This document shows, piece by piece, positions 1 through 16,402 of a DNA stretch of 64,000 bases. The notes under the pieces were generated by a model. That model was not told where the DNA came from. It saw only the letters and a list, made by a program, of their open reading frames with translations, and ran no database searches. The position numbers were made by a program, and so were the translations under genes. Within the stretch, counting starts at the first letter, position 1. Each line of letters begins with the position of its first letter. Origin of the DNA: Oceanospirillum linum. Lineage in GTDB: Bacteria; Pseudomonadota; Gammaproteobacteria; Pseudomonadales; Halomonadaceae. The stretch is taken from contig NZ_MTSD02000003.1 of NCBI RefSeq assembly GCF_001995095.2, positions 62,001-126,000 on the forward strand, read 5' to 3'.

Positions 1-1
1 C

Positions 2-262
2 TATGAAGGGCCAAATTTTCTTGTGATTCACCCGGATGAGTGTATCGACTGTGCGTTATGTGAACCGGAATGCCCGGCAAACGCGATCTATTCAGAGGAT
101 GAACTGCCGGACAGTATGCAGCATTTTTTTGAACTGAATGAGATGTTGGCAGAACACTGGCCAAATCTTGCTGAACGCAAAGACCCGTTACCGGATGCTG
201 AAAAGTGGGACGGTGTTGAAAACAAACTGGATAAGCTGGAAGGGCTGCCGGAAGATTTATAA
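2..262 (+). CDS. fdxA: 7Fe ferredoxin, 3' part only
   Basis: Partial: the gene enters from the left edge and only its last 86 codons are in the window. The protein is a small cytoplasmic electron carrier. The visible part starts with the [20 protein letters not shown] segment and contains the Cys-x2-Cys-x2-Cys-x3-Cys-Pro cluster-binding motif, followed by the acidic C-terminal extension of about 60 residues typical of the Azotobacter/Pseudomonas seven-iron ferredoxin. The N-terminal [3Fe-4S] ligands lie outside. In Pseudomonas fdxA lies next to rpoS and the regulatory RNA rsmZ, which matches the RNA predicted just downstream here. The stop codon lies within the first unit of a 19-bp tandem repeat. 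Confidence 0.93.
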
Positions 263-331: not shown

Positions 332-359
332 AAAAAGAGAAGGGCGGCCCCGCCGCCCT
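332..359 (-). terminator. Rho-independent terminator of the Csr/Rsm-type RNA
   Basis: On the minus strand the stem GGGCGGC / GCCGCCC with a short G-rich loop is followed by TTCTCTTTTT. On the plus strand no T-run follows the same hairpin, so it mainly terminates leftward transcription, although it may also slow the end of fdxA transcription. Confidence 0.8.
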
Positions 360-541
360 ATGTCCCTTTGCCATCCAATCCATGACAGCGCCATCGTCCT
401 GATAGCAGACTTATCCTAAGTCTTCCCTGTGGCCTCCATGAACGTATGCATCCTGCATCCCTGTTCGCCACGCGTTTCCATTCCTTTTCCCTTAATCCCT
501 GTACCGGTCTCCATTCCGGCTTGCTGCCACTCCCTGACTGC
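332..541 (-). ncRNA. Csr/Rsm-type regulatory RNA (CsrB/RsmZ-like), predicted
   Basis: The minus strand carries 16 GGA triplets between 531 and 362, many in the AGGGA, CAGGA or AGGA context bound by CsrA/RsmA. Several sit in hairpin loops. The clearest is GACTTA-GGA-TAAGTC at 408-422; others include ATGC-AGG-ATGCAT near 445-457 and a CTGC...AGGGA...GCAG stem at the 5' end. The transcript would end at a GC-rich hairpin followed by a T-rich tract at about 332. A GacA-type upstream site lies about 180 bp before the predicted 5' end, the distance I recall for rsmZ in Pseudomonas. Such RNAs sequester the translational repressor CsrA/RsmA. The neighbouring fdxA fits Pseudomonas rsmZ. The 5' end is inferred from a TAATAT-like -10 at 548-553. 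A 63-codon open frame overlaps but looks accidental. Confidence 0.75.
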
Positions 542-710
542 AGGTTCATATTAACAAATATCCGTCATTTAATAACACAATTTTTATGTGGTTAATTCTG
601 CCTCAGCCACCCCATAAAAATATAACCATTTGATTTTAAACGATTAAAATTAATGTCTTATCGATTAAGAGCTTTATACCCTGCTCCGTGGCGCTGATAT
701 CTTAGTGTTT

Positions 711-728
711 TGTAGGAAATATCTTACA
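711..728. promoter_or_regulatory. GacA/UvrY-like upstream activating site
   Basis: The 18-bp sequence TGTAGGAAATATCTTACA matches the GacA consensus TGTAAG-N6-CTTACA at 11 of 12 defined positions. It is centred about 180 bp upstream of the predicted 5' end of the GGA-rich RNA. Together with the RNA it forms the standard architecture of a Gac/Rsm regulatory RNA gene. Confidence 0.7.
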
Positions 729-770: not shown

Positions 771-798
771 AAAAAAGCCAGCACCCAAGGGCGCCGAC
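771..798 (-). terminator. Rho-independent terminator of parC
   Basis: On the minus strand, just after the parC stop, GTCGGCGCCC pairs with GGGTGCTGGC (three G-U pairs) around a very short loop and is followed by TTTTTTATTTT. Confidence 0.75.
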
Positions 799-845
799 CT
801 TCTTTAATCTCCGGCAATCACAGCCGTACAACCTTAAGAAAGAGG

Positions 846-3113
846 TTATTCCGCATCGTTTACATCGAGCCGGTCAACCTTTTGGAAACCACGGGGTAGC
901 TTATTCCCCCGTCGTCCACGTTCACCGAGGTAATGCTCAAGATCGGAGGGCTTCAGCTTAAGGTGGCGCTTTCCTGCAAAAATGGTTAAGGGTTCTTCGG
1001 CCTGCATCACGATCAGATCACGAACAAACTCTTCCCGACCCGATGATTTGGCCGATGGAATATCGATCATTTTATTCCCCTTACCTTTACTCAGCACCGG
1101 AAGCTGATCCAGGCGAAAGACAAGAAGACGTCCTTCAGTCGTCACCACGGCAACTCGGCTTTCAGTACCTTCCGGGATCAGCTTAGGTGGCAGAACCTCA
1201 CACCCTTTCGGCACGGTCAGCAGTGCTTTCCCCGCCTTCTTGCTGGCCAGCATATCCGAAGACGCCACAACAAAGCCGTACCCTGCATCACTAGCCATCA
1301 GAAAGTGACGTTTATCTTCTGCTATCACCAGCCCCTGGAAAGTTGCACCGGATGGCGGGTTGATACGCCCGGTCAATGGCTCACCCTGGCCTCTGGCTGA
1401 GGGTAGCGTGTGCACCGGCAAGGAATAACTTCGGCCACTGCTATCAACAAAAACGGCTTGCTGGTTAGACTTACCCTTACAGGCCAGGTGAAAACTATCA
1501 CCGGATTTATAGCTCAGGCCTTCCGGATCAATATCATGTCCTTTAGCAGCTCGTACCCATCCTTGTTTTGACAAAACAATAGTCACAGGATCAGCACTTA
1601 CCAGAGCCGTTTCATCCAGCGCTTTAGCTTCTTCACGACACACCAATGGTGAACGGCGGAGATCACCAAACCTATCGGCATCTGTGGTTAATTCGTCCTC
1701 GATGAGCTGATTCAGAGCACTATCGGACCCCAGCAGATGCTCCAGCCCTTCCCGTTCATTCTGCAGCTCATCCTGCTCGCCACGTATCTTTATCTCTTCC
1801 AGTTTCGCCAGCTGGCGTAGACGCAACTCAAGAATCGCTTCTGCCTGGCGTTCACTGAGAGCAAAGCGGCCGATCAGCTCCTGTTTTGGCTGATCTTCTG
1901 TACGGATAATATCAATCACTTCATCAATATTCAGATAAGCGATTAGAAGCCCTTCCAGCAAATGAAGGCGGTCATTCACTTTTTCTAACCGGTGCTCAAG
2001 CCTGCGTTTAACCGTTGCCCGCCGGAAGTTAATCCACTCTCCCAGAATCTGTAATAAACCCTTAACCTGTGGCCGCCCATCAATACCGATCATATTCAGG
2101 TTAACGCGGTAACTTTTTTCCAGGTCTGTAGTGGCAAAAAGATGGGCCATCATCGAGTCTGTATCGATCCGGTTTGAGCGAGGAACAATAACCAGGCGCG
2201 TCGGGTTTTCATGATCCGACTCATCGCGCAAATCAACAACCATCGGCAATTTCTTAGCCTGCATTTGTGCCGCAATTTGTTCCAGGACTTTGGCCCCGGA
2301 AACCTGGTGCGGTAAAGCAGTTACAACGACATCACCGTCTTCAATCTGGTAAACCGCTCTCATTTTCAGGCTACCCTTACCTGACTCATACAGCTTACGA
2401 ATATCAGCTTCAGGCGTAATAATCTCAGCATCGGTAGGGTAGTCCGGTGCCTTAACAAAGCGCATCAGGTCTGATATCCCTGAGGCTGGATTGTTCAGTA
2501 AGTGTACTGTCGCCTGAACCACCTCATTTAAATTATGGGGTGGGATATCGGTTGCCATCCCTACTGCAATACCGGTAGAGCCATTTAAAAGCACATGGGG
2601 AACCCGGCTCGGTAATACCGCAGGCTCATTTAAGGTACCATCGAAGTTAGGCAGCCAGTCAGCTGTACCGTGGCCCAGTTCAGATAGCAACAACTCAGAG
2701 AACTTAGCCAGTTTAGCTTCGGTATAACGCATGGCAGCAAAAGACTTAGGGTCATCCGGTGAACCCCAGTTGCCCTGCCCATCCACCAGAGGATACCGGT
2801 AAGAAAAAGGCTGAGCCATCAGTACCATTGCCTCGTAGCAGGCGCTGTCACCGTGGGGATGGAATTTACCCAGGACATCACCGACTGTACGTGCAGACTT
2901 TTTATGTTTGGCACTGGCTTTGAGACCCAGTTCAGACATCGCATAGATTATCCGGCGCTGAACAGGTTTAAGCCCATCACCAAGATGAGGAAGTGCACGA
3001 TCAAGAATGACGTACATAGAGTAATCAAGGTAAGCTTTCTCGGTGTACTGTTTGAGCGAAATCTGCTCAACACCATCGAAGCTGGGGTCTGCTGGGTTAA
3101 TTGGTGCACTCAT
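846..3113 (-). CDS. parC: DNA topoisomerase IV subunit A
   Basis: This is the breakage-reunion subunit of topoisomerase IV, which decatenates daughter chromosomes together with ParE (encoded 47 kb away in this window). At 755 residues it has the length of E. coli ParC. The N-terminal winged-helix/tower domain contains the catalytic tyrosine in AAMRYTE (Y130). The quinolone-resistance-determining segment [11 protein letters not shown] keeps the sensitive-type serine (S90) and glutamate (E94). The C-terminal part is a degenerate beta-pinwheel. The start is ATG at 3113, where M-S-A-P-I-N leads into the conserved [20 protein letters not shown]; the Shine-Dalgarno sequence is weak. The gene stands alone and is followed by its own terminator. 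Confidence 0.97.
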
Positions 3114-16147: not shown

Positions 16148-16234
16148 GCCCAGGTGGTGGAATTGGTAGACACGCTAGCTTCAGGTGCTAGTGGCCGTAT
16201 GGCCGTGGAGGTTCAAGTCCTCTTCTGGGCACCA
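16148..16234 (+). tRNA. tRNA-Leu (anticodon CAG), copy 1
   Basis: An 87-nt class II tRNA with encoded CCA. The acceptor stem is GCCCAGG/CTGGGC, the D-loop contains TGGTAGA, the anticodon arm is CTAGC-TTCAGGT-GCTAG with anticodon CAG, the variable arm GGCCGTATGGCC is long as in leucine tRNAs, and the T-arm is GGTTCAAGTCC. Confidence 0.97.
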
Positions 16235-16315: not shown

Positions 16316-16402
16316 GCCCAGGTGGTGGAATTGGTAGACACGCTAGCTTCAGGTGCTAGTGGCCGTATGGCCGTGGAGGTTCAAGTCCTCTTCTGGGCAC
16401 CA
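16316..16402 (+). tRNA. tRNA-Leu (anticodon CAG), copy 2
   Basis: Identical over all 87 nt to the first copy, 81 nt downstream of it, with encoded CCA. The spacer differs from the sequence upstream of copy 1, so only the gene is duplicated. It is probably processed from one transcript with copy 1, since no second promoter of comparable quality is visible. Confidence 0.97.

Follow-up and report, generated by a model that had tools for sequence, protein, structure and literature searches.

The stretch of DNA analysed here, called the window below, comprises 64 kb of the genome of Oceanospirillum linum (G000:C220:62001-126000, where G000 is the organism's own genome), and positions given without a further label are counted from its first base. 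At its left end the 3' part of fdxA faces an intergenic, apparently non-coding region with a Rho-independent terminator, beyond which lies parC; the gene order is mutS > fdxA > | < sRNA | < parC. The features considered are the following.

1-262, plus strand: 3' part of fdxA (NF045490), convergent with the sRNA gene; the whole gene is L015:7924-8262
332-541, minus strand: predicted sRNA gene of 210 nt, transcribed from 541 to 332, placed on the basis of GGA motifs, terminator and comparison
341-359, minus strand: intrinsic terminator hairpin of the sRNA, with a T-run down to 332
548-553, minus strand: inferred -10 box, TAATAT here and TAAAGT in the other six copies of the genus
711-728, minus strand: putative GacA-type upstream activating site, TGTAAG-N6-CCTACA (20-bp form, 710-729)
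771-804, minus strand: terminator-like hairpin after parC, from the terminator scan
846-3113, minus strand: parC, which holds the place of Pseudomonas rpoS

The identity of fdxA rests on a match of 173.6 bits to NF045490 (cut-off 135), and its stop codon is 69 nt from the 3' end of the sRNA. Its best named relative in the genome collection, from which records very near the window were perhaps left out, is that of Oceanospirillum sanctuarii (83%). To the left of the window, mutS (L015:5274-7912, plus strand) is read as two overlapping ORFs in different frames, while in O. sanctuarii it is one ORF of 855 aa; this is either a frameshifted gene or an assembly error.

GGA motifs, fold and control signals

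A preliminary description, made from the letters of the window, had claimed sixteen GGA motifs in about 170 nt of the minus strand, several of them exposed, before a terminator. The count is exact: the minus strand of 332-541 has 16 GGA, 11 of them ANGGA, and all lie within 364-533. No other stretch of 170 nt in the 64-kb window, on whichever strand, has more than 9, and the high density, far above background, is confined to one strand. Shuffles of 332-541 that preserve dinucleotides gave on average 8.8 GGA, and 16 were attained by one of 5000; among the 3-mers that occur at least five times in the gene, GGA is the most over-represented. As to exposure, 10 of the 16 motifs are fully unpaired in the minimum free energy fold, and the mean unpaired probability is 0.76 for GGA vs 0.42 for all bases of 332-541. 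The fold energy of 328-570 has a z value of -2.42, equalled by 2 of 200 shuffles.

The terminator was likewise found as described. Its stem (341-359) is followed on the minus strand by the T-run TCTCTTTTTC, and all 7 copies of the genus share its 8 stem pairs without change. The terminator scan of 1-1000 returned minus-strand terminators only, including the hairpin at 771-804, which would set parC apart from the transcription unit of the sRNA. The ends of the predicted gene, 332 and 541, were placed with the help of the terminator and of the other six copies, and the putative -10 box and start were read by eye from the aligned copies; a mechanical scan of 1-1000 for sigma-70-type promoters found none.

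The site at 711-728, which the preliminary description had given as an 11-of-12 match about 180 bp upstream, agrees at 11 of 12 positions with the rsmY site of P. fluorescens, which has the form TGTAAG-N6-CTTACA (PMC4353343); its first base lies 187 nt upstream of position 541, the predicted start. A palindrome upstream of rsmX, rsmY and rsmZ has been named a potential GacA site (PMC2375449). The exact pattern TTGTANGN6CNTACAA occurs twice in the O. linum genome, each time before a GGA-bearing RNA gene, and 11 times in the six Oceanospirillum genomes, 7 times before the RNA of this locus and twice before the second RNA described below. We considered as evidence only exact and well-placed sites, because the pattern with at most one mismatch was no commoner than its reversed control.

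Copies in the genus

The sRNA gene was found in all six Oceanospirillum genomes searched, in 7 copies, since O. sanctuarii (G004) has two in tandem, G004a and G004b (L017:4324-4539 and L017:5020-5235, both minus strand), each with its own GacA site. According to the preliminary description, it would speak against the gene if close relatives had lost the GGA motifs and the upstream site; both are kept in 6 of 6 genomes, and the exact pattern precedes every copy, its core starting 186-198 nt before the predicted start. The copies are listed with predicted length (nt), number of GGA, and distance (nt) from the first base of the site to the predicted start.

G000 (O. linum): 210, 16, 187
G004a: 216, 14, 187
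G004b: 216, 16, 188
G003: 186, 10, 186
G002: 382, 27, 197
G001: 380, 26, 187
G005: 348, 25, 198

Predicted lengths thus differ by up to 196 nt, with 5.4-7.6 GGA per 100 nt. When all seven copies are aligned, only the 3' end aligns well, that is the terminator, the GGA hairpin preceding it and a hairpin of the GACTTAGGATAAGTC type. Between these two hairpins G000, G004a and G004b have, as judged by eye, one extra GGA hairpin with respect to G003 and G002, which suggests that whole modules have been gained or lost. Over aligned bases, G000, G003, G004a and G004b are 73-83% identical to one another, and pairs involving G001 or G005 are 52-61% identical.

We also compared the retention of GGA at aligned positions with that of other 3-mers. 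In the near copies it was only slightly higher (11/16 vs 61%, 10/16 vs 56%, 7/13 vs 52%); in two far copies it was clearly higher (9/14 vs 32%, 6/15 vs 20%), and in one far copy, with 4/14 vs 31%, it was counted as no better. Covariation was restricted to the 3' part of the window RNA because the hairpin modules differ in number (G005 is absent from alignment A4 and present in A1 and A5). In the conserved 3' GGA hairpin it is weak: 2 pairs are changed on both sides, a value matched by 64 of 500 shuffles, and the score of 0.180 falls to 0.061 or less when the partners are slid. Given the weak covariation, the poor retention of single sites in several comparisons and the steady GGA density, we take selection to act on the density of motifs more than on individual sites.

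The DNA query used for the relatives ended at 700, and hence was without the GacA site. Its matches in G005 (C39), G051, G049 and G007 (L007-L010) were dropped as chance: they cover only query 48-94, corresponding to window 607-653 in the A+T-rich spacer between site and start, and their loci have at most 8 GGA per 170 nt and no strict GacA site nearby. A 22-nt match in G002 (L013) was dropped as chance in the same way.

Rfam matches

At gathering scores the Rfam scan of the whole window reported two tRNAs only and not the sRNA gene, and hence a relaxed scan was needed. (The tRNA genes at 16148-16231 and 16316-16399, plus strand, lie close together with equal Rfam scores, and are possibly a recent duplication.) The relaxed scan gave the following match.

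334-461, minus strand: Rfam RF00166 (PrrB_RsmZ), 32.9 bits, gathering score 44

Among the Csr/Rsm covariance models, whose use the preliminary description had proposed, RsmZ is the best match to the gene, with a score below the cut-off. RF00166 is the only match listed for the gene, save two lower ones of the same clan, omitted unnamed by the tool, which overlap it; CsrB (RF00018) is not listed at the locus. Against the whole O. linum genome RF00166 has one match (E 9.8e-6). At E <= 1, the RsmZ scores of the other copies are 39.0 (G004b), 21.1 (G003) and 20.6 bits (G004a); G005 matches CsrC weakly, at 21.3 bits against a cut-off of 61, and the two largest copies, G001 and G002, match no Rfam sponge family.

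The spread of the sRNA outside the genus was judged by RF00166 and by the survey of fdxA given below. In the genomes of the order, searched with filters that lose weak matches, RF00166 was found at E <= 0.001 in 30 of 293, 12 of them above the cut-off; two unrelated control genomes likewise gave weak matches. Elsewhere in the order, one genome has two RsmZ-model matches close together (G132:C5:83129-83279, in L147, and 83592-83686, plus strand), perhaps a tandem pair.

Position of the gene

In Pseudomonas, rpoS, rsmZ, fdxA and mutS are near one another (PMC4353343). The place beside fdxA, claimed as rsmZ-like by the preliminary description, is borne out by the NF045490 match: the O. linum gene adjoins fdxA-mutS and is convergent with fdxA, and on its other side it has parC and not rpoS. 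In G003 and O. sanctuarii the same two genes, fdxA and parC, flank the sRNA on the same sides; in G002 it lies behind an EpmA-like gene and is convergent with fdxA-mutS, and in G001 and G005 it lies behind rpoS (the EpmA-like and rpoS names were read from translations). The Pseudomonas order is thus met piecewise, the fdxA side in G000, G002, G003 and G004 and the rpoS side in G001 and G005. Since rpoS precedes the gene in the latter two, we read the parC side as a local rearrangement and not as another gene, and the sRNA gene is probably orthologous by position to Pseudomonas rsmZ.

For the fdxA survey we considered the best 80 of 340 loci, of which 79 were usable (L027 was left out for its short flank; L044, L048 and L065 had less than 1200 nt). 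In 17 of these 79, O. sanctuarii itself among them, the 1200 nt downstream of fdxA contain a 170-nt stretch with at least 10 GGA on the convergent strand; on the other strand this was so for none of the 79, and upstream for none of 78 (without L080). In 12 loci of relatives in which RsmZ exceeds the Rfam cut-off (L128-L139; 3.1 kb read), fdxA is present in 9 and rpoS in 8; a strict GacA site lies 178-189 nt before the RsmZ match in 5 of them and was not found before the other 7.

In a Pseudomonadales MAG (L021) there are, in a row, rpoS, two GGA-rich RNAs and fdxA, with a GacA-type site before each RNA:

L021:4604-4882, minus strand: CsrB-like RNA, first after rpoS, CsrB 52.8 bits (cut-off 71)
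L021:4234-4339, minus strand: RsmZ-like RNA, RsmZ 31.6 bits (cut-off 44)

Ketobacter (L025) resembles this MAG in its pair of Rfam matches, and one strict site was found there.

A predicted second RNA with a GacA-type site

The other exact GacA site of the O. linum genome (G000:C109:70697) leads to an RNA gene of about 100 nt:

L105:1352-1451 (G000:C109:70548-70647 or so), minus strand, outside the window: predicted second RNA

This RNA is present, at a locus other than that of the sRNA, in 6 of 6 Oceanospirillum genomes. In five copies the GacA site starts 68 nt before the RNA, and in G003 the preceding site has one change. Each of five copies has 4-6 GGA, one of them in the terminator loop, and in another GGA hairpin three pairs are changed on both sides, which is covariation. 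The model of the second RNA matched 3 of 293 genomes of the order, namely O. linum and two outside the genus (L159 and L160, E about 4e-4), which we rejected because they are terminator-like and without the conserved block. The invariant 5' block, with at most 3 mismatches, occurs in one of 369 genomes of the class, that of O. linum. The scan of five copies gave no Rfam match at gathering score; for the O. linum copy a Phe leader and a plasmid antisense RNA are the best of the weak matches, and CsrB contributes a 23-nt partial match of 10.3 bits. The second RNA may be read as a small RsmX/RsmY-like RNA.

Interpretation

The partners of such RNAs are encoded by the O. linum genome: CsrA (one match, 120 bits, NCBIfam cut-off 73), a GacA/UvrY orthologue before uvrC (305 bits, cut-off 280, NCBIfam) and a BarA/GacS-like hybrid kinase, whose best family is BarA at 714 bits, under the cut-off of 890. 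The GGA density, the terminator, the GacA-type site, the conservation in the genus, the place by fdxA, RsmZ as best match and these partners agree with one another, so we assign the RNA to the Csr/Rsm class, as the preliminary description had done. We are highly confident that the minus strand of 332-541 encodes a GacA-activated, CsrA-sequestering sRNA; its transcription, the binding of GacA and of CsrA, and its effect on targets we infer from sequence.

Precisely, phosphorylated GacA would bind the palindrome at 711-728 and activate a promoter about 180 bp away, and the resulting 210-nt RNA would end at the hairpin 341-359. Its 16 GGA, many of them in hairpin loops or single-stranded stretches, would bind several CsrA dimers and titrate CsrA off its mRNA targets, so that GacS/GacA signalling would relieve CsrA control. 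This would place the GacS/GacA-CsrA switch in Oceanospirillum, with a sponge RNA that goes unreported when Rfam is scanned at its cut-offs.

An additional role as antisense RNA to fdxA, as proposed for CsrR2 of Alcanivorax, described as antisense to its adjoining fdx gene (PMC9788540), would make this a dual-function RNA, and it is suggested by the convergence of the two genes in O. linum. We consider it unlikely: a gap of 69 nt separates the end of the RNA from the fdxA stop codon, fdxA is missing from the ORFs of the 8 kb read in G005, and in G001, where the contig ends about 450 nt past the RNA, it is not seen either.

Lying between two converging genes and 69 nt from the fdxA stop, the stretch might also belong to fdxA or parC as a 3' UTR or terminator region with no separate function, and an RNA of the minus strand would be antisense to the fdxA 3' UTR. 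This is very improbable, given that parC has its own terminator-like hairpin (771-804), that the T-run of the sRNA terminator is on the minus strand, and that in three species of the genus the same RNA, site and terminator are found behind other genes, an EpmA-like gene in G002, with fdxA on the far side, and rpoS in G001 and G005. It is extremely improbable that the stretch codes, or once coded, for a short protein, since, although a 63-aa minus-strand ORF (358-549) and a 49-aa plus-strand ORF (446-595) exist mechanically and the ORFs in two relatives' RNAs (G003 and G004b) have a WRTGMQ stretch in common, the longest closed sense ORFs of the seven RNAs have just 20-37 aa and, judged by eye, read differently apart from short stretches, RNA length differs by 196 nt within the genus, and the terminator and distal GacA site suit an RNA gene.

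Comparison with known systems

The CsrA-sequestering RNA proposed here shares with RsmZ/PrrB of Pseudomonas (RF00166) the place by fdxA-mutS, a palindrome about 180 nt upstream, GGA hairpins and a terminal hairpin (PMC4353343). It differs in that it is under the Rfam cut-off, has parC instead of rpoS on its other side, and is larger, with 210 nt and 16 GGA vs the 133 nt and 8 GGA of RsmZ of P. fluorescens SS101 (PMC4353343). CsrR2 of Alcanivorax dieselolei, a CsrA-related sRNA seen by dRNA-seq and transcribed from its own promoter, also adjoins a ferredoxin gene, a place that its authors liken to fdxA-rsmZ; it has six unpaired GGA, is antisense to its ferredoxin gene, and is likened here by description only (PMC9788540). 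CsrR2 being published, this arrangement is already in print for the wider group (PMC9788540).

The preliminary description had also placed the RNA, as longer than RsmZ, nearer to CsrB/CsrC (RF00018, RF00084), and the genus range, from 186 nt with 10 GGA to 382 nt with 27, and the relatives with 25-27 GGA agree with this. CsrB and CsrC likewise have many GGA, and CsrB is of about the size and motif number of the 348-382-nt copies of G001, G002 and G005. However, they have another chromosomal place in E. coli, the best match of the window RNA is RsmZ, and G001 and G002 match neither family at E <= 1.

Early predictions of CsrA-regulating RNAs exist, and full-text searches on Oceanospirillum in a collection of papers found no description of such an RNA. 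The class of regulator is well known, and the Oceanospirillum gene is very probably a new and unusually variable example of it. Its interest stems from a number of motifs that is elastic within the genus, from the tandem duplication in O. sanctuarii, and from the second RNA. With 10 to 27 motifs at one locus, the genus would be a natural series useful for relating motif number to titration strength.

As a tentative and rather doubtful extension, RsmZ-type and CsrB-type sponges could be size forms of a single elastic locus lying between rpoS and fdxA, in which GGA hairpin modules are gained and lost and the whole gene is duplicated in tandem (10 to 27 GGA in one genus), with an unchanging control region; Oceanospirillum would pair this sponge with the second RNA, about 100 nt long and GacA-boxed, whose 5' block, being invariant, hints at a base-pairing role in addition to CsrA binding. 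Duplicated genes of this class are known elsewhere: as in O. sanctuarii, rsmX-1 and rsmX-2 of P. brassicacearum are in tandem (PMC7911923) and Vibrio has extra csrB copies (PMC6262261), the duplicated gene being rsmX and csrB, respectively, in those cases and the rsmZ-locus gene here.
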